Positions 4,015 to 31,732 of a DNA stretch of 64,000 bases are shown here, one piece after another. The position numbers were made by a program, and so were the translations under genes. Numbering within the stretch: the first letter of the stretch is position 1; every line of letters starts with the position of its first letter. The stretch spans positions 1-64,000 of the forward strand of contig NZ_NSKE01000012.1 in the NCBI RefSeq assembly GCF_002287075.1, written 5' to 3'. The notes beneath the pieces are model-generated. The model searched no databases. It was given only the letters and a program-made list of their open reading frames with translations, and was not told where the DNA came from. This stretch comes from Fodinibius salipaludis. GTDB lineage: Bacteria > Bacteroidota > Rhodothermia > Balneolales > Balneolaceae.

Positions 4015-4683
4015 CTATCTCTCTACAAATGTAATTACGGTCTGAATTTCAGGAGGAGTTGCTGCGATTACCGCATATTTTATCCCCGGGCCGTATTCGA
4101 AATCAGTGTATCCATTTTCTACTGTTTCCAAGATTGTTTTGACCTTTTCAAAATCAAAATTCGGTTTTCCATCCTCAGTTTTGAATGCTTCCGGTAAATC
4201 TTCCGATTTCACATCTTCTAATTCAAACTTTGGATGCGTCTGCAGTGACCATATTGCAATCTGAAACTCACGCCAGGTAAGCTCAGGATCATCCTTTTTC
4301 AAATCATCTGCGATGTTAAATAAGTAGTTAACTGGTCTCCATTTATCAACCCGATAGGTAGAATAGAGTGGTACATTTTCATAAGTGCCACTATCTAAAT
4401 CCAGAGGAGTTCGAATATCAATACACCAACTATCCTTGATGCCATTATCAATAATATCATTAGCTTCAATATTTTTAAATTGAATACTAAAATATGCTTG
4501 CTGAGCTTCGTTCCTCTTAACAACTATAGTTGTTTCCTCTCCTCCAGTGACTGGTGTAACTTCTTCTATTAGTTCAAGTGTATCTTTAATATCGCCATCG
4601 GTTGAGTTCTTTTTACAGGAAACAGCTACTATCAACAAACTGGCAAGTAAACAGTAGATGAAGCGGTTCTTTATTGGATTCAT
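4015..4683 (-). CDS. small lipoprotein with putative Cys-Gln thioester (TED/TQXA-like) domain
   Basis: The protein has 222 residues with a lipoprotein signal ending at Cys23 (VAVSC). The rest is one domain related to the N-terminal half of the protein at 18922-20046: W-C87-I-D, then PLYST, W..VNYLFN, D-D-P-E-L-T-W-R-E-F-Q141-IAIWSL and a trailing F.FEKVKTIL segment. An aromatic-Cys-x-[DE] motif paired with [TE]-h-Q-x-x-h-W is the signature of internal-thioester adhesion domains, in which Cys and Gln side chains crosslink and then react with target amines or hydroxyls. That the bond forms here is inference. A sigma-54-type promoter lies 54 bases upstream. An ATP-grasp fragment and an intact ATP-grasp gene follow. 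Confidence 0.8.
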   Translation of the reverse strand: MNPIKNRFIYCLLASLLIVAVSCKKNSTDGDIKDTLELIEEVTPVTGGEETTIVVKRNEAQQAYFSIQFKNIEANDIIDNGIKDSWCIDIRTPLDLDSGTYENVPLYSTYRVDKWRPVNYLFNIADDLKKDDPELTWREFQIAIWSLQTHPKFELEDVKSEDLPEAFKTEDGKPNFDFEKVKTILETVENGYTDFEYGPGIKYAVIAATPPEIQTVITFVER

Positions 4684-4736
4684 TTTTTACCTCAGTGAAT
4701 TTAATTGCATCGTTTTACTTTATACTAACTATAGTC

Positions 4737-4752
4737 TCAACTATTGTGCCAA
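4737..4752 (-). promoter_or_regulatory. sigma-54-type promoter of lipoprotein/ATP-grasp operon
   Basis: On the minus strand the sequence is TTGGCACAATAGTTGA. The -24 element TGGCAC is perfect, followed by five bases and TTGA in the -12 position. The start codon of the lipoprotein at 4683 is about 54 bases downstream. Confidence 0.65.
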
Positions 4753-14024: not shown

Positions 14025-14921
14025 TTAATTTACTAATTCTTTAATCTTTTGGTAAAACGACCTTTTTTTATATCGGCTTAGATCTATTTCCCCATCAAAA
14101 CGGTATCCCAATTTATGCGCCAATACGAGGGCCTGGGGATGTTCAAATATTTTCTCCCACTCAATTCTGGAAGAGGATCTATGATGATAGTTATCATACT
14201 TTGTATTAAGTCTGTCAAGCATCTTCTCATCATAATTAAGACTCATAAACGCCAACATCTCAATTAAAGTAATTCTATTAATCTCTTTACTCTCTTCGAA
14301 TAAGTTTTCAAATTTGAGGGAATAAAATGGAACGCTGGAATATCTTTGCTTTATTTCTAGTGCCCGAAGGTTAATTTCTGCCCAGTAATAAAGCGATTTT
14401 TCAAAGAGGCTTAAATTATCCCATCTACTTCTATATTCGCTCAAAATTGCAGAATCATCAAAAGGAGTCAGTTCTGCCTTTTCAAATCGATCTTCAACTC
14501 TACCGGTATACCAATTATGGGTTACAAGTGAAGCAGCAACATTTACAGGATTCCGATATAAATGAATCAGTTTCAATTGTTTTCCAAATCTTTCATGTAA
14601 TTCAGAAATTCCTGCAATACTCTGCCAACCAATTTCGATATAATGCCTGTTCTGTATTGTTTCATCAACAAATTCTAAATGATTATCCAAAATGATATTT
14701 CCTTTTGTTACTGCCGGTCGATCATATATCCCCAGATTTTTTCTTGGATAGTATTCATACTTTATAGGTTCATGGAGCACAATAGCCTCATCACCGTAGG
14801 TGTCACTTATATTTTTAGCAATCCATTGAGTGCCACATCTGGGCGTGCATAAGAATACAGTCACAGGATATACCCTGTTAGTCATATTCTTTGGATAATA
14901 TTTTAAGCCCTTGGTAGTCAT
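14025..14921 (-). CDS. sulfotransferase family protein, first gene of nine-gene operon
   Basis: This 298-residue protein shows the two PAPS-binding elements of sulfotransferases. The 5'-phosphosulfate loop is VFLCTPRCGTQWIAKNI near residues 22-38. The 3'-phosphate strand is LKLIHLYRNPVNVAASLV near 135-152. It probably transfers sulfate to the polysaccharide or a glycolipid. An internal ATG at residue 13 (14885) would place the loop nearer the N-terminus and is an alternative start. A sigma-54-type promoter lies about 80 bases upstream, making this the leading gene of an operon that ends at 4934. Confidence 0.85.
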   Translation of the reverse strand: MTTKGLKYYPKNMTNRVYPVTVFLCTPRCGTQWIAKNISDTYGDEAIVLHEPIKYEYYPRKNLGIYDRPAVTKGNIILDNHLEFVDETIQNRHYIEIGWQSIAGISELHERFGKQLKLIHLYRNPVNVAASLVTHNWYTGRVEDRFEKAELTPFDDSAILSEYRSRWDNLSLFEKSLYYWAEINLRALEIKQRYSSVPFYSLKFENLFEESKEINRITLIEMLAFMSLNYDEKMLDRLNTKYDNYHHRSSSRIEWEKIFEHPQALVLAHKLGYRFDGEIDLSRYKKRSFYQKIKELVN

Positions 14922-14998
14922 TCGAGGATCAGCATCTTATTTTTCATTAGAATTGAACATTAGTACCAACTATCTCCCTTTTCATATAATGATTAACT

Positions 14999-15014
14999 AC
15001 AATAGTTGTGCCAA
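14999..15014 (-). promoter_or_regulatory. sigma-54-type promoter of the nine-gene glycan operon
   Basis: The minus strand reads TTGGCACAACTATTGT: a perfect TGGCAC -24 element, five spacer bases and TTGT at -12. The sulfotransferase ATG lies about 78 bases downstream. Confidence 0.7.
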
Positions 15015-15306: not shown

Positions 15307-16215
15307 TTATTGAGCCGGACTTTTCGTTTTTGAACTTTCTGAATTATAGATATCAACAAGTGCATTTGGAATAGTCCAAGCAGGCTGAAAATCAAAAGTT
15401 GAATAAAATAACTCACTGTCCATCAATGAAAATTCTTCTCGTGGCGTATCCGGCTCACGCTTGATGATCTGCCCGCTATTTTCAAATATACTATTAATTA
15501 ATACAGCCAATTGAGGAATGCTAACCACCTCTCCGGAACCGAAGTTAAAAACACCTTTTACTTCAGGTTTGCCTAAGGCGGCTAAAATTCCATTCACTAC
15601 ATCCTTTACATAAATATATTCTCGCTTCTGGCCTTCCGTTGCATAAAGTTCAATTAATTCTCCCTTTAACGCATTTCCTAAAAATCTCCCCAACATATAT
15701 TCTTTTCTGGCGTCTATGCTTAAGACATGTGCCAATCGAAGACATTTTATAGACAATCCTTTTTTATTAAAATAATCTGCCGTTTGTTCGGAAATCAACT
15801 TACCCAATGAATAAGGATTCTCAGGAGTAGGATGACAGTCTTCAGACCACGGGATATCAGGATTTCTGCCATATACACCACAGGATGAGGCAAATACAAT
15901 ATTGGTAATACTCAAGATCTCACAGGCTCGAAAAATGTTATAATCAACTAACACATTCTTGAATGAGTTATCGGAATTCTTTTTTTGCAGACGTTGAGCT
16001 GCTAAATGAATAACGGCATCAGAATCATTAAAAATATTACAAAGTGAATCTACCTTATAATCTGTTTGCAGCTGTGTAACATTTAGGTCTAAATATTCCG
16101 GTTCAATTTTTAGGTGTTTTCTCGATAGTACAACAGCTTCATAATTTCCAGGCAATATTTTCAGAAGTTCTCGGCCAATCAGACCTCTACCTCCGGTAAT
16201 TGCTATTTTCATCAT
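15307..16215 (-). CDS. NAD-dependent sugar epimerase/dehydratase (extended SDR)
   Basis: This 302-residue protein has the extended short-chain dehydrogenase fold. The NAD-binding glycine motif ITGGRGLIGRELL is at the N-terminus, VIHLAAQRL follows, a conserved SSCGVYG precedes the active site, and the YSLGK catalytic Tyr-Lys pair lies near residue 134. The product is probably an epimerised or reduced nucleotide sugar for the polysaccharide. Its start codon directly abuts the stop of the ATP-grasp gene upstream, so the two are translated together. The substrate cannot be assigned from sequence alone. Confidence 0.88.
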   Translation of the reverse strand: MMKIAITGGRGLIGRELLKILPGNYEAVVLSRKHLKIEPEYLDLNVTQLQTDYKVDSLCNIFNDSDAVIHLAAQRLQKKNSDNSFKNVLVDYNIFRACEILSITNIVFASSCGVYGRNPDIPWSEDCHPTPENPYSLGKLISEQTADYFNKKGLSIKCLRLAHVLSIDARKEYMLGRFLGNALKGELIELYATEGQKREYIYVKDVVNGILAALGKPEVKGVFNFGSGEVVSIPQLAVLINSIFENSGQIIKREPDTPREEFSLMDSELFYSTFDFQPAWTIPNALVDIYNSESSKTKSPAQ

Positions 16216-17331
16216 TTATGTTTTATAAATTTGATACCCGCATTTTTCCATGAATGTATTCATCGAATTTACGACCTCACCATTCTTATAATACCAATCG
16301 TGATAAAGTGAATTACTCGTATCATAATTATCAATATTCACCTCTTTTTCGGGCTTTTCACACATAAATTCCAACACCCAGGTTTCACTTCCATTAGAAG
16401 TCCCGTTTATATTATTGAATACTATCCTATTTCCGGTTCCGCCCATTAAGTGTTTGATAGTTGTTGCCAACAAGTCAACTCCTGTGGCATGTTTGATGAG
16501 TCTCCACATGTGGCAACCGTCCAGCCTTGGCGTCACTTCTATTAGCTTAGGTTCTTTATTTCCCTTCAATTTGATTTGAAAATAAACCGGTCCATTTTTA
16601 ATGCCGATGCGATCAGTAACCTCCACCATCAATTGATGAATTCGACTCTTACTTTCTTCAGTCATAAATTGAGATGGGAAACGATGCTTATTAATGATTC
16701 CCCCTGAAAATTCAGACCAAACAATGCGATCACTGATAAAGGAAAAACAGATCTCTCCATCTACTATATAGGCATTAATAGAAATCTCAGGACCTTCTAT
16801 ATATTCTTCAACAATTAAACGTTTACTCTTCGAATATCTCAGGGAAGTCGAAAATTTCTCAACAAAATCTCTTCTATTTTTAATTAAAAATACTCCTCTT
16901 TGTCCCTGACTGTCTACCGGCTTCAAAATAAACGGATATGAGAATTCAGTCATATCAGACGTCCCTTCCAAAACCCTATATTTCACATTCCAATCTAATG
17001 TACTTAATCGAGCTCTAAGCAGATCTTTATTATGACAAACTCTGGCAATTTCAGGTGTAATGAATGAAGGCAATTTTAATTTATTACTCACAATGGCAGC
17101 AGTCACCATTCCCAAATCGGACCCAACAGAATAAATAATATCAATACCCTCTAACTTCGCATACTTAAAAACCGACTGTTCATCTTTTATATCTATCTGC
17201 TCAAAAGTATCAACGAACTCTTTACCTGCTCCCTCAGATGAGTAACTCACAGCATGAATTACATGGTCACCGGATAGCATTCTTATCAGATCTGCCTGAG
17301 CATTCCCAATTCCTAAAACTAAAAACTTCAT
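16216..17331 (-). CDS. ATP-grasp protein, carbamoyl-phosphate-synthase-like
   Basis: This 371-residue protein has a Rossmann pre-domain (VLGIGNAQADLIRML) and then a CPSase/biotin-carboxylase-type ATP-grasp core. FILKPVDSQGQRGVFLI lies near residues 129-145, LIVEEYIEGPEISINAYIV near 175-193, and the metal-binding PKLIEVTPRLDGCHMW near 265-280. These enzymes activate a carboxylate and couple it to an amine. It is enclosed by two sugar epimerase genes in one operon, which suggests formation of an amide or amino-acid substituent on a sugar. That is inference. Confidence 0.85.
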   Translation of the reverse strand: MKFLVLGIGNAQADLIRMLSGDHVIHAVSYSSEGAGKEFVDTFEQIDIKDEQSVFKYAKLEGIDIIYSVGSDLGMVTAAIVSNKLKLPSFITPEIARVCHNKDLLRARLSTLDWNVKYRVLEGTSDMTEFSYPFILKPVDSQGQRGVFLIKNRRDFVEKFSTSLRYSKSKRLIVEEYIEGPEISINAYIVDGEICFSFISDRIVWSEFSGGIINKHRFPSQFMTEESKSRIHQLMVEVTDRIGIKNGPVYFQIKLKGNKEPKLIEVTPRLDGCHMWRLIKHATGVDLLATTIKHLMGGTGNRIVFNNINGTSNGSETWVLEFMCEKPEKEVNIDNYDTSNSLYHDWYYKNGEVVNSMNTFMEKCGYQIYKT

Positions 17332-17402
17332 CTCTTTAGATTTTTATTATCAATGGTAGAAAGAATTGGGATACTCATGACCGCAACTCTCTATTTATAA
17401 AG

Positions 17403-18482
17403 CTATTTCGCCAGAGCAGATTCTGTATATTTAGTCTTATTCGCTGGAATTCCATCCTTTATCCAATACAAGTCATCATTTAGCTGACCGGTGCTAAGTA
17501 AAAATTTCAGCTGCTTAAGACGCGTATACGGCTTTGCATTAAAGGTTTCCTCATCCAGGTCAATTTGATTAAAGACCTTATAAAGTTCTTGCGCCCCTTT
17601 TTCTGCATTGTATTCACACGAAAAGCCGGGCAGCTGTGAATTTATTTTATCGAATGAAACGCGATAGCTTCGGTTATCTCCGCCACTGTCGCCAAAGGTC
17701 GTTTTACACCCTGGAAAAGCTGCACCAACGATTTCAGCAATCTCTCTGACTCTAAAATTTTCCTCAGTATCCCCCACATTAAACACTTGGTTATGAATAA
17801 TCTCTCTCGGGGCCTCGAGTGCACACCAAAATGCTTTACTTATATCTCTGATATGAACAAGCGGTCTCCACGGCATCCCGTCACTAATCATCTCAATAAC
17901 TCCTGTGGTCCATGCGAGTCCCGAAAGGTTATTCAGTACGATATCAAAACGCATTCTGGGTGAAGCACCATAAGCAGTAGCATTTCTCAAGAAGGTCGGT
18001 GAAAACGTATCATCAGCTAATTTCGAAACATCCCGCTCAACCCTGGTTTTACATTCGGCATAAGCGGTCTGGGGATTAACCTCTGATTCTTCTGTTTTGT
18101 AATCACTATTTCCCGCACCATAAACACTACAGGAAGAAGCATAAACAAAACGTTCAATACCCGCCTGTTTGCACAATTTTGCAATCCGCACACTTCCCTT
18201 GTGATTTATTTTATAGGTGATATCCGGATTCAATTTTCCAAGGGGATCGTTTGAGAGCTCAGCGAGGTGTACAACAGCATCAAAACCTTCCAGATCTTCA
18301 ACTTCGATCTCTCTTAAATCTTTATTGATATAAGATGGGTATACCTTTTCTCCATTATTAAAAAGCCATCCGGCCCTGTAAAATCCCGTATCAAGACCTG
18401 TTACGCTATGACCTTTTTGTATTAAATATGGTCCCAAAACTGACCCGATGTATCCATCTGTACCTGTTACTAATACTTTCAT
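17403..18482 (-). CDS. NAD-dependent sugar epimerase (extended SDR)
   Basis: From the ATG at 18482 the protein has 359 residues and opens MKVLVTGTDGYIGSVLGPYL, the NAD-binding Gly-x-x-Gly-x-x-Gly motif. A slightly longer frame (start 18494, MGMIMKV) exists, but the shorter start places the glycine motif at the usual position. The catalytic YAECK lies near residue 136 after SSCSVYGAG. GDTEENFRV and SYRVSFDK follow in the substrate domain. It begins the three-gene operon driven by the sigma-54-type promoter at 18600-18615. The nucleotide-sugar substrate is not determinable here. Confidence 0.88.
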   Translation of the reverse strand: MKVLVTGTDGYIGSVLGPYLIQKGHSVTGLDTGFYRAGWLFNNGEKVYPSYINKDLREIEVEDLEGFDAVVHLAELSNDPLGKLNPDITYKINHKGSVRIAKLCKQAGIERFVYASSCSVYGAGNSDYKTEESEVNPQTAYAECKTRVERDVSKLADDTFSPTFLRNATAYGASPRMRFDIVLNNLSGLAWTTGVIEMISDGMPWRPLVHIRDISKAFWCALEAPREIIHNQVFNVGDTEENFRVREIAEIVGAAFPGCKTTFGDSGGDNRSYRVSFDKINSQLPGFSCEYNAEKGAQELYKVFNQIDLDEETFNAKPYTRLKQLKFLLSTGQLNDDLYWIKDGIPANKTKYTESALAK

Positions 18483-18599
18483 AATCATTCCCATTTATAG
18501 TTAGCAGCACCATCTTAATATCCGTGAAATATGAGACAGCACTTTTATTGATAGTTATAGCCCCTCTCATTTTCGAGACCTACGTTTATCAGTAGATAT

Positions 18600-20137: not shown

Positions 20138-21238
20138 TTAAAGCTGCTCCTGAATGGTCTTAAGTATCCGGTATGTTGCCTTCCCATCCCACTTATCTGG
20201 TATAGATCCTTTCTTATATTGTCCCTCTCTTATGGAACCTATAACTCGCTTTATTTCATCCAAATCAAAAGGTACCAGTGTGTTGGTTCCAACCTCTATA
20301 GTAGATGGGCGCTCGGTATTCGGTCGCAGCGTTAAACACGGAACTCTTCGAAATGTTGATTCTTCCTGGATACCGCCACTGTCGGTAAGAATAAACTCAC
20401 AACTGGCGATAAGCTTTTGGAAAGCAAAATAATCCATCGGTTCAGTCAATATCACATTCTTATTTTGAGCTAATCGATCATACAGTTCAAACTCTTTTAG
20501 TTTATTGACGGTTCGGGGATGAATAGGAAAAACAAGCTTTTGGGTCTCGGTAATTTCTTCAATTAAGTGAATTAACTTAAACAACTCATCCTTATAATCC
20601 ACCGTTGCCGGTCGGTGCATAGTCATAAGAACGAACGAGCCTTTTTCCAGTCCCAGTTTCTCCAGAATAGGCGATTGTTCTATTTCATCCTCAAAAGCTA
20701 CCATAGTATCAATCATGGTATTGCCAACAAAGAATAGCTGTTCTTCTGTCTTGCCATTACCATTGAGATTGCGCATTCCACTTTCTTCGGTGATGAATAA
20801 ATAATCTGAAATCTCATCGGTCAAAATACGGTTAATCTCTTCCGGCATAGTTCGATCTCCGCTACGTAATCCGCTTTCTACATGGGCCAGCGGAATGTCC
20901 ATTTTATTGGCTGTGAGCGATGCTGCAAAAGTTGAATTCACATCTCCCGTTACAAGAATAATATCAGGTTTTACCTCTTTCACTACCGGTTCCAAACGCT
21001 TCATAACTTCTGCCATCTGGTTGTTCGGCGACGATGGTGGAATCTCTAAAAAATAGTCCGGTGTTAATTCAAACTGCTTAAAGAAAACATTGGCCATCTT
21101 ATTGTCATAATGTTGCCCGGTATGTACAATCTTGATATTAAACTCTCCCGGAAAATCCTGCTCTGCTACTTTTTTAAACTGCGTAACCTTAATAAAATTT
21201 GGCCGCGTCCCCACTATAATCAATAGGTTCTTCATCAT
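20138..21238 (-). CDS. wecB: UDP-N-acetylglucosamine 2-epimerase (non-hydrolysing)
   Basis: This 366-residue enzyme interconverts UDP-GlcNAc and UDP-ManNAc in the cytoplasm. Family motifs are clear: GTRPNFIK at the N-terminus, HTGQHYDNKMANVF near residue 40, HVESGLRSGDRTMPEE near 117 with catalytic acids, and DSGGIQEES near 287 for UDP binding. It is the last gene of the fcl operon, 34 bases after the UDP-sugar dehydrogenase gene. Together these two can supply a mannosaminuronate or related HexNAc-uronate. A second Met one codon later is an equally good start. Confidence 0.93.
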   Translation of the reverse strand: MMKNLLIIVGTRPNFIKVTQFKKVAEQDFPGEFNIKIVHTGQHYDNKMANVFFKQFELTPDYFLEIPPSSPNNQMAEVMKRLEPVVKEVKPDIILVTGDVNSTFAASLTANKMDIPLAHVESGLRSGDRTMPEEINRILTDEISDYLFITEESGMRNLNGNGKTEEQLFFVGNTMIDTMVAFEDEIEQSPILEKLGLEKGSFVLMTMHRPATVDYKDELFKLIHLIEEITETQKLVFPIHPRTVNKLKEFELYDRLAQNKNVILTEPMDYFAFQKLIASCEFILTDSGGIQEESTFRRVPCLTLRPNTERPSTIEVGTNTLVPFDLDEIKRVIGSIREGQYKKGSIPDKWDGKATYRILKTIQEQL

Positions 21239-21272
21239 ATAATAAATTGGTTAATCTCTATACTCAACAGTA

Positions 21273-22673
21273 CTACGCTTTCCATATTTGATTACTGGTA
21301 CGCGGATTCACGTCTTTCATGGCATTGCGAGTATCAATGATCACATCATTCCAATCAGCCAGCTCTTGGTAATTAATATCAGAATGGTTGGTTGAAATGA
21401 TCACCGCATCAAAACTGGAAATCGTTTCTTCATCCCATGCCACCGTCTTTAATCCGGTCCATTCTTTATGTTCTCTCGTTTCCCAGATTTCAGGAATATA
21501 GTGATCATAATAAGAGACATTTGCCCCATATTCTTTTAGCAAATCCATTAGCTTAAAGGTAGGCGATTCTCTCAGATCATCGACATCCGGCTTATAGGCA
21601 AGACCGACAATCAGTACATCACTTCCATTAACAGGTTTGTAATGTGCATTAAGTGCTTTAATGGTTCGTTCAATTACATAATCAGGCATACTTGTATTAA
21701 TTTCACCGGCCAGCTCGATAAAGCGTGTGTTTTGCTCATATTCCCGAGCTTTCCATGTCAAATAAAAAGGATCAATAGGAATACAGTGTCCGCCCAAACC
21801 GGGACCGGGTGTAAACTTCATAAATCCAAAAGGTTTCGTTGCAGCGGCATCCAACACTTCGTGGATATCAATTCCCATCTCTTGGAAGACAACTTTGAGT
21901 TCATTTACCAAGGCAATATTTACAGAACGAAAAATATTTTCGGTAAGCTTCACCGCTTCGGCTGTTTTGTTGTTAGAAACGGCTACGGTCTCTACAACTA
22001 TTGCATCGTATAGTGAACAGGCTACCGCAAGAGCGTCGGCCCCATCAGCTCCAACTACCTTTGGAATTTTTGCCGTATTAAAATTCGGATTTCCGGGATC
22101 TTCGCGCTCCGGGCTATACGCTACAAAGAAATCCTTCCCTGACTTCATCCCCGAAGCCTTTTCTAAAGTCGGAATAATAAGCTCATCTGTTGTTCCGGGA
22201 TATGAGGTGGATTCCAATATTATCAACTGCCCTTTCTGAATATGTTTGGCAATCGCTTGAGTAGTTTGCTCAACATACTGCATATCCGGCTCGCGATAGG
22301 GGTTCAGCGGCGTAGGCACACACATGATAATCGCATCCATTTCCCGGAGTTTGGAAAAACTGATCGTCGCTGAACATCGATCAGATTCCGCCAGCTTTTC
22401 CATCATATCATACCCAAGATGCTTTATATAAGGTGTACCACTCTCGATATTATCTATTTTGTCCTGATCCACATCAAAACCTACCACCGGAAATGCCTTT
22501 TCATGGAACGTCCACATTAGCGGCAGTCCAACATAGCCAAGACCAATAATTCCTATCTTGGCCGTTCTGTTTTGAATCCGATTAATAAAATCGTTTCGTA
22601 ATTCAACAACAGGTTTGGATTTTGCAGTTCCTTTGTTATTGGATGTAATTGGAAAGTTTGGAATAGTCTTCAT
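21273..22673 (-). CDS. UDP-N-acetyl-hexosamine 6-dehydrogenase (WbpA/WecC type)
   Basis: This 466-residue enzyme oxidises C6 of a UDP-HexNAc to the uronic acid with two NAD. It has [13 protein letters not shown] near residue 40 after an unusually long polar leader, [14 protein letters not shown] in mid-domain, [10 protein letters not shown], the catalytic Cys297 in [13 protein letters not shown], and [18 protein letters not shown] in the C-terminal domain. The sequence resembles WbpA (UDP-GlcNAc dehydrogenase) more than UDP-glucose dehydrogenase. Its first 38 bases overlap the end of gmd, indicating tight coupling. With wecB next to it, the product may be UDP-ManNAcA or UDP-GlcNAcA. Confidence 0.9.
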
Positions 22674-23736
22674 CTTTATTATTTATTATCAGATTAATTT
22701 TTTCTTGGTCTTCACGAACCATCTCTTCAACAAGTCCTTCAAACGTATATTTGGGCGTCCACCCTAACTTTTGTCGCGCTTTAGTGGCATCCCCAATAAG
22801 CAGGTCCACTTCGGTAGGACGAAAATAGCGGGGATCGATTTCTACAATCACATCGCCCGTTTCGGTGTTGATCCCTTTTTCGTCAATTCCTTCACCAATC
22901 CATTCGATCGTAATACCGGCATGATGGAAGGCCAGCTCACAAAACTCTCTTACACTATGCGTAACACCTGTGGCCAATACCAGATCTTCGGGGTCATCCT
23001 GCTGAAGCATCAGGTACATGCCTTCAATATAATCTTTGGCATGTCCCCAGTCCCGTTTGGCTTCCAGATTACCGAGGTAGGTCTTTTCCTGCAAGCCAGC
23101 AGCAATACGAACAGCAGCTCGGGTAATTTTTCGAGTTACAAACGTTTCACCGCGAACCGGTGATTCGTGATTAAATAGAATACCGTTTACCGCATACATG
23201 TCATATGCTTCACGATAGTTCACCGTAATCCAGTAAGCATAAAGCTTGGCAACACCATATGGTGAGCGCGGATAAAATGGTGTTGATTCTTGCTGTGGTA
23301 CTTCCTGTACCTTTCCATAGAGCTCGCTTGTCGAAGCTTGGTAAAATTTCGTTTGGTCTGTCATACCCAGTATCCGGATTGCTTCCAACAGTCGTAGCAC
23401 ACCCATAGCATCTACGTCGGCCGTATATTCGGGAGCTTCAAAAGAAACCTGCACATGACTTTGGGCAGCCAGATTATAAATCTCATCGGGTTGGGTTTCC
23501 TGAATAATGCGAATCAAATTTGTAGTATCTGTCAGATCACCATAGTGCAAATGAAACGGTAACTCATCGGCGTGAGGATCTTGGTAAATATGGTCTATAC
23601 GTCCGGTATTAAATGAACTTGATCGCCTTTTAATACCGTGAACTTCATATCCCTTTTGCAGCAAAAATTCCGCCAGATATGAACCATCCTGTCCCGTAAT
23701 ACCCGTAATTAATGCGACTTTCTTGTTCTCTTTCAA
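22636..23736 (-). CDS. gmd: GDP-mannose 4,6-dehydratase
   Basis: This 366-residue protein catalyses the first step from GDP-mannose to GDP-L-fucose. [19 protein letters not shown] gives the NADP-binding motif. [22 protein letters not shown], the YGVAK catalytic pair near residue 160 and [16 protein letters not shown] are hallmarks of GMD. It lies between fcl and the UDP-sugar dehydrogenase gene in the operon. The C-terminal tail of about 20 residues, rich in Asn and Lys, overlaps the next gene and is longer than usual. Confidence 0.95.
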
Positions 23737-23772
23737 AGCATCCCTCCTTGTTTATTTAAAACTAATTTCATG

Positions 23773-24720
23773 TTATAACTTTATTTCCTTTAGCTGATTA
23801 ATATTCTGCAGGAACCAGCGATAGGTTTCCATAAGCCCATCTTGCAACTCTTTACTATGCTTCCATCCCAGAGAATGCAACTTTGAAACATCCAGCAATT
23901 TTCTTGGAGTCCCATCGGGCTTGGAGGTATCCCAAATTATTTCTCCCCGATGACCAATAATCTTTTGTATTAGGTAGGCCAATTCTTTGATTGAGATATC
24001 TTTACCCGTTCCCACGTTGTAAATATCTCCCTTAATCTCATTCTCTACCGCAAACAAAATGGCTTCTGCCATATCCTGAACATGAAGAAATTCCCTTTTG
24101 GGCTTCCCTGTCCCCCACAACTTTACCGGGGTATGACCATTTTCAGCTGCTTCATGGAACTTCCTGATCATCGCGGGTACCACATGAGAAGACTTCAGAT
24201 CAAAATTATCTCGGGGACCATATAGGTTTGTCGGCATCAGAGATACATAATTGCGACCGTACTGACGATTCAATGCTTCACACAGTTTTATTCCCGTAAT
24301 TTTGGCAACAGCATACCACTGGTTGGTGGGTTCTAAAGAACCCGTTAATAAATAGTCTTCTTTTATAGGTTGCTTGGCATGTTTGGGATAGATACACGAG
24401 CTGCCAAGAAAAATAAGCTGGTCAACATTATTTTCATGGGCCGCATTTATTACATTGCTCTGGATAAGCAGATTATCATACAAAAATGGATACGGGTTTT
24501 GGTCATTTACTAAAATTCCCCCAACCCTGGCAGCAGCTAAAACAATTACATCTGGCTGCTCCTCACTCATAAAATCTCTAACAGCTTGCTGATTACGCAG
24601 ATCCAATTCACTGCTCGACTTAGTAACTATATTCGAATAGCCGTTACTTTTAAAAATCTCCAGCACCGCTGCCCCAACCATGCCTCGATGACCTGCTATA
24701 TACACTTTTGTCTCTTTCAT
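23773..24720 (-). CDS. fcl: GDP-L-fucose synthase
   Basis: From the ATG at 24720 the protein has 315 residues. A longer frame adds 12 residues (start 24756), but the chosen start opens [19 protein letters not shown], the normal family beginning. It epimerises and reduces GDP-4-keto-6-deoxymannose to GDP-L-fucose. LAAARVGGI, the SSCIYP motif, YAVAKITG (catalytic Tyr-Lys) and LYGPRDNFD are visible. It heads the fcl-gmd-dehydrogenase-wecB operon and lies 47 bases from a sigma-54-type promoter. Confidence 0.95.
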
Positions 24721-24765
24721 ATTCTGTTTTACTATATAAATAACCGTTCCGTACACAACTTTGAT

Positions 24766-24781
24766 ACAATAACTGTACCAT
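24766..24781 (-). promoter_or_regulatory. sigma-54-type promoter of fcl-gmd-dehydrogenase-wecB operon
   Basis: The minus strand reads ATGGTACAGTTATTGT: TGGTAC at -24, five bases, TTGT at -12. The fcl ATG at 24720 is 46 bases downstream. Upstream, TTACCTGCTAAT (near 24820) resembles TTACTTGCTAAT in the 18.7 kb region. Confidence 0.6.
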
Positions 24782-29096: not shown

Positions 29097-30323
29097 TTAT
29101 TTCACGGGATGATTCTCATCAGAAACTACAAAACGTTTATCTTTTTCATCAGGTGGCGATACAATTGCTTGGTCCTCTCTGCGATACTTCTGAATAAAAC
29201 CTTGCACTTTTAAATAAATAGTAACCGGTATATACATAACAGATTTTAGAAACTTTTGTTGAGTGCCAGCAGCCGTCAAGGCTATAGATATACTTGTTAT
29301 TGCTACACCAAATATTACTAACCAATACAGTAGTGGCGATAGTGATATCCATCCTAATCCCCACAACGCACTATTTATTAACCCCATTGCTGCAATTAAG
29401 AAAATAATATTGGCAATTTTTGGTAATAATAATTCAATTAATATATCGACATACTTATGCGATTTTGTTTTTACAGCCCTTCCCAAAAGCTGAGGTAAAT
29501 ACTTCCTTAGGGACTCGTTAGGAGTGCTGAAATAACTATTATTATCATTATTTACAGGTAATATGGATGTAAAGACAGCTGCATTTGGAGCAAAGTCTAT
29601 TTCTACTCCCCTTAACCGTAAGTCAAAACCGTATTCAACAATGCTTGGTTGCTTCTCTGTCTTCCAAGGAAATTCACGTAACAAAACAGTGGAAAAACAT
29701 ATTCCATTATTTCCAAGAGTTAACCCCAAACCAATATTTTTACGTCCTATTGGATATACGAATCGATTGAGCAAAAAATCCATTTCACAAATTTTATCAA
29801 TCCAGGTTTTAGGGTTATCCAAATTATTATAGCTGCACTGTATCACCTCACTCCCCTGTTCTAAATAATAATTCATTACCTCCAGATAGTTGCCCGATAT
29901 CAAACCATCAGAATTAAAAGTAACAACTGCATCGTAAGATTCATCTCCATGCAATATGCTATCAAATGCCCAAGGCAAAATCATATTTTCATCCTCCTCT
30001 CGTGTATCTGTTGGAGGTACCATAATTTTTGCCCCCATTTTTTCTGCCATCTTAACAATATTGTTAGAATAACTATCAGCAATGACTATCAAATCATATT
30101 TGTTTTTAGGATATATCAGCCCCGATAAGCTATATAGAATACGAGATAATCCCTGCTCTTTTTCCTGAGCAAATAAAAGAACTGCAAATTTTCGAATTTT
30201 AGAAGCTTCATAATCAATGTTCTTATTTTTCAGTAAGGCTAATAAACTAATCAGCAAATAGTAACTGGTAACGCCCCCCGCCACACATACTAACAAATAA
30301 TTAAGACCCTCAATAAAAATCAT
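29097..30323 (-). CDS. divergent membrane-bound family 2 glycosyltransferase
   Basis: This 408-residue protein has one N-terminal membrane span (about 9-31), a cytoplasmic GT-A domain and two or three spans between about 305 and 375, the layout of processive membrane GT2 enzymes. The domain has FAVLLFAQEKE, VIADSYS (Asp83), a DxD-like FNSDG near 136-140, a GNNGICF motif and VEYGFDLRLRG in place of the usual TEDxDL. The QxxRW product-binding motif is not recognisable. The changed motifs suggest another specificity or a non-processive role. It is set apart from the main glycan locus by housekeeping genes, yet has the best-matching sigma-54-type promoter of the window. Confidence 0.8.
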   Translation of the reverse strand: MIFIEGLNYLLVCVAGGVTSYYLLISLLALLKNKNIDYEASKIRKFAVLLFAQEKEQGLSRILYSLSGLIYPKNKYDLIVIADSYSNNIVKMAEKMGAKIMVPPTDTREEDENMILPWAFDSILHGDESYDAVVTFNSDGLISGNYLEVMNYYLEQGSEVIQCSYNNLDNPKTWIDKICEMDFLLNRFVYPIGRKNIGLGLTLGNNGICFSTVLLREFPWKTEKQPSIVEYGFDLRLRGVEIDFAPNAAVFTSILPVNNDNNSYFSTPNESLRKYLPQLLGRAVKTKSHKYVDILIELLLPKIANIIFLIAAMGLINSALWGLGWISLSPLLYWLVIFGVAITSISIALTAAGTQQKFLKSVMYIPVTIYLKVQGFIQKYRREDQAIVSPPDEKDKRFVVSDENHPVK

Positions 30324-30429
30324 CGTTTACCTTCCTTGAAATCTGAATAAATAATAAATACTGTTTCTCTGTATCCTTTTCTCATGAATCCCTAAACCAA
30401 TATATATACTACTCTTTACCGTTATATAA

Positions 30430-30445
30430 GCAACAAGCGCGCCAA
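30430..30445 (-). promoter_or_regulatory. sigma-54 promoter of membrane glycosyltransferase gene
   Basis: The minus strand reads TTGGCGCGCTTGTTGC followed by T. It matches the sigma-54 consensus including the -12 TTGC, the closest match in the window. The gene starts about 107 bases downstream at 30323. Confidence 0.75.
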
Positions 30446-30750
30446 GATAGAAGAAAGACCATTAATAAACCTTAATTATCCCTTTGTAGAAATGCTTACA
30501 TGTAGCCTCTGCTATTAAAGTAGAACAGTATACAGCGTTATCACTTTATTAGGAATAACGTCTAACCGAAGATAGATTATTTATTGAGGGGTATCCTAAC
30601 CCAGGAAATCAAAATATTATGACTCAATATTACACTTACTTGAAAAGCTTCTATGAAATTAATACCCAAGTATACTTTTCTCGTTGAAACAAATAGTTCC
30701 CTGACTTTACATTAGTTGATCAAAATACTGAATGCTACAATAAATAAAGA

Positions 30751-30766
30751 TTGGCACATTTGTTGT
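30751..30766 (+). promoter_or_regulatory. sigma-54-type promoter of the degenerate AAA+ gene
   Basis: TTGGCACATTTGTTGT: a perfect TGGCAC -24 element, five bases and TTGT at -12. The chosen ATG at 30902 is about 136 bases downstream. Confidence 0.7.
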
Positions 30767-30901
30767 AACTAAGACATATAGAAAGAGAAGGACTCTTAGA
30801 AATACCCGGAAGTTTGACCATGAGATTATTTGCTTTGAAAATTGGTCAAATTCAATTTTGATCGGGGTTATCATATATCCACATACATATTTCTATATAT
30901 C

Positions 30902-31732
30902 ATGATTGTATCAAAAAATACTCTCAAAACCCAAAATGCCCTACCCAAAGACATAGAAAAATCTTTCACAAGTCTATTGATGCAAGATATTTACCACAAG
31001 GTTTTGCAGCTGGCTAAGCTCGACTCAAATATTCTGATCATTGGGGAAATTGGCTCTGGGAAAAAAAACATTGCCAAAATTATTCATCAAAATAGTAAGC
31101 GATCTACTAAACCTTTTTATTCATTCTATTGTGTAGACGTTAATGAAGATGATTATCAAGATAATTTTTGGGGACATCTTAACTTTGAAGAACGTCAACT
31201 TACGCTAAAATATAAGGCTTTAGAACAGACCCAAGGCGGTATTCTGTATTTAGATCAATTTTCAGAATTATCCCCAAAATATATGCTCAATATTCTTGCA
31301 TCCATAGATAAAGGAATTAACCAGCTATACCGCTTAGATAACACTTCGAGCCCCCGATTAATTCTTTCTTTTAACCAAGAATCATATCAAGATCTTACTA
31401 ATTCATCTATATGGGAAAAACTACTTGTCAAGTTAGATCCAGTAGTAATAATGCTGCCGCCCCTTCGCGAACGCAAAGAGGATATTCCCATCCTAATAAA
31501 TAATTTTATAGAAGAGTTTAAGGAGCAAAATGAAGGCTATAAGAATTTAAATATATCGCCTCAAGCCCTTTATAATTGCTTCAATTATAGCTGGCCGGGC
31601 AATATTCGTCAGCTTAAAAATGCAATATTGCAAGGAGCCATTCTTTCATTTGGTGAGACAATAAAATCGGAACACCTTCCATTTACGATGAACTGGGACC
31701 TCCCATATAAACTTAATAACAACAAGATATAA
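30902..31732 (+). CDS. degenerate sigma-54 activator-like AAA+ protein (pseudo-activator)
   Basis: Start 30902 is the first ATG; a TTG 60 bases upstream in frame is less likely. The 276-residue protein is one sigma-54-activator AAA+ domain. Fold markers are present: Walker A GEIGSGKK (48-55), GGILYLDQFSEL, PLRERKEDIPILI and WPGNIRQLKNAI. Key residues are lost. The catalytic Walker B Glu is Gln119. The GAFTGA loop that touches sigma-54 is replaced by NFEERQ after FWGHL. The Arg fingers of FREDLYYRL are Trp171 and Lys177. There is no receiver domain and no helix-turn-helix. It probably binds ATP poorly or without turnover and could cap or poison hexamers of a true activator. It faces the intact activator gene convergently. 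Confidence 0.82.
   Translation: MIVSKNTLKTQNALPKDIEKSFTSLLMQDIYHKVLQLAKLDSNILIIGEIGSGKKNIAKIIHQNSKRSTKPFYSFYCVDVNEDDYQDNFWGHLNFEERQLTLKYKALEQTQGGILYLDQFSELSPKYMLNILASIDKGINQLYRLDNTSSPRLILSFNQESYQDLTNSSIWEKLLVKLDPVVIMLPPLRERKEDIPILINNFIEEFKEQNEGYKNLNISPQALYNCFNYSWPGNIRQLKNAILQGAILSFGETIKSEHLPFTMNWDLPYKLNNNKI

Follow-up and report, generated by a model that had tools for sequence, protein, structure and literature searches.

A Fis-type DNA-binding domain is usual in bEBPs, although it is not universal. The rings formed by these activators work through GAFTGA loops and arginine fingers acting in trans (PMC7175178). FleT has been called the sole known activator-type protein without regulatory and DNA-binding domains (PMC7175178); its synthesis depends on FleQ and RpoN2, after which it hetero-oligomerises with FleQ (PMC11999139), and its gene shares an operon with genes for structural parts of the apparatus that FleT regulates (PMC11999139, PMC7277832). 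PspF has no sensory domain either, and a separate protein, PspA, inhibits it in trans (PMC3791423). TyrR, DhaR and HupR have been reported to be sigma-70 dependent (PMC3162934).

The window, the whole stretch of 64,000 nucleotides that was analysed, contains a gene for an activator-type protein (P1) facing the gene of an intact activator (P2); the features are collected in Table 1. In the open-access literature searched, no report of this pair was found.

P1 and the intact activator P2

By its residues P1 is a catalytically dead AAA+ protein of the sigma-54 activator type. In Pfam the Sigma54_activat family scores 68.5 bits on it, above its cut-off, and AAA_lid_14 is also matched; HTH_8 was not found, and the protein ends after the lid. 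The Pfam domain content is an AAA+ core and a lid with neither a regulatory nor a DNA-binding domain, the absence of the latter having been claimed in the initial annotation. The top solved relative by sequence is ZraR (phmmer, 1.8e-34). Foldseek matched the fold of a modest structural model to the activator type; since the model came from a four-row alignment and reached a pLDDT of 61, the fold match alone was used.

Aligned with P2, with seven further activators that this genome encodes and with every relative, P1 of the window has an intact Walker A (GEIGSGKK) and retains the sensor-I Asn and the sensor-II Arg (WPGNIRQL). Its Walker B reads DQ instead of DE, the switch Asn is replaced by Tyr, the two arginine fingers by Trp and Lys, and a shorter, unrelated stretch takes the place of GAFTGA. 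The earlier description from the letters of this DNA (Walker A and sensors kept, Gln for the Walker B Glu, no GAFTGA, Trp and Lys for both fingers) is thus borne out by the alignment. After the lid comes a tail motif, HLPFSMNWKLPY (window 31670-31729), a possible binding motif that is kept in most P1 proteins and shortened in two (L036 and L037).

P2, correctly described beforehand as an intact activator facing P1, is convergent with it across a gap of 83 bp, retains every activator motif in Pfam and in the alignment, and is about 30% identical to P1. The genome of 39 contigs encodes nine intact sigma-54-activator domains in addition to the degenerate P1. The site scan of the window gave no convincing -24/-12 site for P2 itself. 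In several genomes a NarL-type response regulator lies directly upstream of or near P2 (L048:2001-2645, L072:16168-16854, L073:3-635, L034:10665-11303, L036:10488-11126) and is a candidate input controlling P2 synthesis.

Table 1. Positions in the window of P1, P2, their neighbour and the sigma-54-type sites.
Feature	Position	Strand	Description	Basis
-24/-12-like site TTGGCACAATAGTTGAG	4736..4752	-	upstream of gene 4015-4683	
-24/-12 site TTGGCACAACTATTGTA	14998..15014	-	upstream of sulfotransferase-like gene 14025-14921	
-24/-12 site TTGGCACATTTATTGAA	18599..18615	-	upstream of epimerase/ATP-grasp genes 15307-18494	
-24/-12-like site ATGGTACAGTTATTGTA	24765..24781	-	upstream of sugar-nucleotide genes 20138-24756	
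EpsU-like GT2 glycosyltransferase	29097..30323	-	divergent from P1	
-24/-12 site of EpsU-like gene, TTGGCGCGCTTGTTGCT	30429..30445	-	also in L031, L032, L035	
Conserved block TCAATATTACACTTA...TATGAAATT...	30624..30668	+	80-130 nt upstream of the P1 -24 element	upstream alignment
P1 promoter, -24/-12 (sigma-54-type), TTGGCACATTTGTTGTA	30751..30767	+	151 nt before P1 start	sequence
P1 gene	30902..31732	+	276 aa; ATG at 30902, stop 31730-31732	translation, Pfam, alignments, relatives, dN/dS
P2 gene	31816..32853	-	345 aa; AAA+ with GAFTGA and Fis-type HTH (HTH_8), no N-terminal regulatory domain	

The single alignment comprised 29 P1 and 23 P2 sequences and the seven other activators of the window genome. 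P2 and these seven have all key motifs. GAFTGA is missing from every P1, and neither finger is Arg in any of them, finger 1 being Trp in 26 of the 29. The Walker B Glu is likewise absent throughout (Gln in 19, Lys in 4, Asn in 3, Gly in 3), Tyr takes the place of the switch Asn in 22, and the residue after the Walker A Lys is Lys, also in 22. Degenerate HTH-like remnants occur in the tails of deep-branch P1 proteins only, such as L048, L072 and L073; they point to an ancestry from a full activator and suggest that catalysis was lost first and the DNA-binding part later.

The nucleotide-pocket residues of the window P1 vary within the family. The Walker A Lys is retained in 27 of the 28 sequences that cover the position. 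The exception is L034, with Thr at this position, and the sensor-II Arg is present in 23 of 29 and missing from six, so that the trapping of ATP suggested in the initial annotation does not appear to be necessary family-wide and is one of several candidate mechanisms. The L034 protein (L034:9562-10392, genome G011) lacks both the lysine (GSGTK) and the sensor-II arginine; its gene is still intact and promoter-linked.

These losses also weigh against a ligand-sensing adaptor, a P1 that would bind ATP or a sugar nucleotide and regulate P2 from outside the ring in the manner of PspA, a protein whose fold is unrelated to that of the AAA+ activator type. We regard this as quite improbable, even with the lysine kept in nearly all relatives, with a P2 that has no sensory domain of its own, and with the precedent of PspA bound across the side of the PspF ring (PMC3791423).

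Sigma-54-type promoters before P1 and the polysaccharide genes

The promoter of P1 had been read as sigma-54-type, and each of the 27 units that could be tested indeed has a -24/-12 site ahead of P1 or of the operon that contains it. Scored in a 350-nt upstream window, 26 of these reach at least 0.82, and the site of the remaining one (L034) lies just outside that window. Scores of at least 0.84 were obtained for 23 of the 27 P1-unit leaders versus 26 of 405 other genes (Fisher p about 1e-20, calculated over related genomes that are not independent). The match is weaker in some genera.

A promoter of the TTGGCACATTTGTTGTA type lies upstream of P1 in seven of eight congeners and, in the eighth, upstream of the operon containing P1. 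When searched with at most one mismatch, P1-bearing congeners have this promoter almost only there or before the neighbouring polysaccharide genes, one extra match being present in G017. Of four congeners that lack P1, three gave no match at all, and the fourth has two with an altered -24 element. Three copies of the pattern TTGGCACANNNNTTGNA are present in the whole genome of 3.58 Mb, all of them within the window and before polysaccharide genes or P1; the control pattern occurs twice.

The stretch 2752-24756 is a polysaccharide cluster with several -24/-12 sites; it encodes two ATP-grasp proteins associated with sugar transfer, an EpsG-like polymerase and a sulfotransferase-like protein. In L031 and L033 the orthologous gene (c26) is preceded by a site similar to ATGGTACAGTTATTGTA. 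P1 lies, as had been supposed, within a sigma-54 exopolysaccharide regulon, -24/-12 sites standing before both P1 and polysaccharide genes, and this regulon is very probably driven by P2.

Upstream of the P1 promoter the block at 30624-30668 is conserved in seven of eight aligned congeners and is a candidate enhancer site for P2. A simple pattern search gave no copy of it ahead of the remaining sigma-54 sites in the window, and an enhancer motif common to all of these sites was accordingly dropped. An inverted repeat in the 5'-UTR, at about 30816-30856, was also discarded, as it is missing in the nearest relative.

Conservation of P1, its pairing with P2 and its operons

Of 129 genomes from the order Balneolales, 23 have a close relative of P1 (47-80% identity), and a more divergent one is present in another six genomes. 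The losses seen in the window P1 are common to 28 relatives within this order, often with the identical replacement residue. None was found outside the order at E<=1e-50 when 394 genomes of the phylum were searched, the top candidates per genome being scored. A scan of contigs matched one relative, from an uncultured Aliifodinibius.

P1 has diverged faster than P2 (mean pairwise identity of 0.47, against 0.63 for P2), as would a drifting remnant. Its dN/dS of 0.085-0.13 (pairs with unsaturated dS), the open reading frames, the common replacements, which mark a re-made protein and not decay, the conserved promoter and the presence of P1 with every P2 speak against such a pseudogene, to which we attach practically no probability; dN/dS and common replacements rule this reading out. 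Random decay, which the initial annotation had named as the finding that would contradict it, is thus not what the related genomes display.

The same note had proposed beforehand to look for conserved pairing of intact and dead copies. A search of the family for P2 at E<=1e-90 found it in 21 of 92 genomes, and P1 is present in all 21. Two of these, G005 and G072, had at first appeared to have P2 without P1, but in both a divergent P1 occupies the corresponding position of the operon. Four apparent cases of P1 without P2 (G050, G051, G066, G094) were set aside because the assemblies are fragmented (190-600 contigs), and a missing P2 is there no evidence of absence. P1 and P2 are adjacent and convergent in six congeners, the window genome counted; elsewhere they lie within about 12 kb whenever both are on one contig. 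In the tree each forms one clade, and the deep branching of the two agrees. The pairwise identities of P1 correlate with those of P2 (r=0.93), the pattern that joint inheritance should leave; agreement of the trees follows from common descent as well. With respect to the origin of P1 relative to P2 the tree has long branches. Taken by sequence, this salt-loving order keeps P1 intact and almost always beside P2, which makes it probably a purpose-made non-catalytic partner and not a dying gene.

Three genomes have a second P2-like gene: L079 (9983-10984; in its own genome C23, about 120182-121162), L080 and G018 (C2:850617-851603). The surroundings were read in L079 and L080, and P1 is not beside the second gene in either, the P1 of the usual locus being present in those cells; P2-type activators may therefore not need P1. 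The second gene lies near NarL-type response regulators and, in L079, also near a CheB/CheR-hybrid kinase.

Outside the genus and in G017, P1 is the third gene of a sigma-54-promoted exopolysaccharide operon, Wza - PorV/Q-like barrel - P1, mostly followed by PHPT and glycoside hydrolases; genes for Wzz, BY-kinase, Wzy and Wzx are divergent from it. In G017 P1 also adjoins P2. The position between the outer-membrane barrel gene and PHPT in most genera would fit a local role, in which P1 would bind nucleotide and serve the Wza/barrel/PHPT machine as a scaffold or checkpoint without acting on P2, and with P1 amid the export operon its co-occurrence with P2 is partly explained by one common locus. 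In the other seven of the eight P1-bearing congeners, however, the orthologues of barrel, Wza and PHPT are gone from the genome, distant paralogues alone being left, and P1 has been retained, immediately following an almost identical promoter and no more than about 5 kb from P2. This loss of the export genes with retention of P1 is the strongest evidence for a function linked to P2 or the regulon and not to those export proteins, and we consider the local role unlikely.

Proposed feedback and comparison with known systems

We propose that P1 is a regulon-encoded non-catalytic AAA+ partner of P2 that closes a feedback loop, a proposal to which we give about an even chance. P2, having no sensory domain, would switch on the sigma-54 promoters of the exopolysaccharide genes, one of which would produce P1. 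By the known mechanism P1 should be unable to hydrolyse ATP; it should not be able to supply an arginine finger to a neighbouring subunit, and it lacks the GAFTGA loop for contact with sigma-54. By joining or capping P2 rings P1 would alter their activity, and the output would so adjust its own activator. More specifically, a pseudo-ATPase conserved across the order might insert in the ring of its paralogue via the remodelled finger (Trp for Arg) and set the output as a feedback subunit, which we put forward tentatively as a possible but somewhat doubtful form of the proposal; at only about 30% identity, mixing of P1 and P2 in one ring is not assured.

P1-P2 hetero-oligomers might instead activate a later class of exopolysaccharide promoters or redirect P2 to it. 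The wiring is the same as that of FleQ/FleT (PMC11999139, PMC7277832), and hetero-oligomers of activators can be productive, as in HrpR/HrpS and VnfA1/VnfA3 (PMC9542535). P1 has lost catalysis, fingers and the sigma-54 loop together, and we consider co-activation or such a switch rather unlikely, if worth keeping in mind. Given contact between P1 and P2, the same three losses make net damping somewhat likelier than co-activation or promoter-class switching, and the negative feedback suggested in the initial annotation is plausible.

How many active subunits a sigma-54 activator ring needs is an old question that has been studied with engineered mutants. If the proposed partnership is true, a natural, regulon-encoded dead subunit paired with a minimal activator would allow tests of it in a native setting, and the restraint of a sensory-domain-less activator for polysaccharide production would be explained. 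Some genes annotated as sigma-54 activators would then encode dedicated non-catalytic partners.

PspA and HrpV do not belong to the AAA+ proteins, whereas P1 is homologous to the activator that it presumably targets. In PspA-PspF and HrpV-HrpS, too, a separate protein restrains an activator without a sensory domain (PMC3791423, PMC9542535).

HrpR and HrpS of Pseudomonas syringae are paired paralogous activators without sensory domains that form hetero-hexamers (PMC9542535). Both are activators needed for transcription, whereas P1 is by its residues catalytically dead and has no DNA-binding domain. TyrR, DhaR and HupR are DNA-binding regulators and differ in this from P1, which has no HTH. Like P1, TyrR, HupR, DhaR and VpsR have an altered GAFTGA in an activator-type AAA+ domain (PMC3162934).

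FleT of Rhodobacter (Cereibacter) sphaeroides is, like P1, of the AAA+ activator type and has neither a regulatory nor a DNA-binding domain. Expression of its gene requires sigma-54 and FleQ; the gene of P1 has a sigma-54-type site and would depend on P2. Compared with FleT as described, P1 also lacks GAFTGA, the Walker B Glu, the switch Asn and both fingers, and it is found, unlike FleT, in exopolysaccharide loci of the Balneolales.
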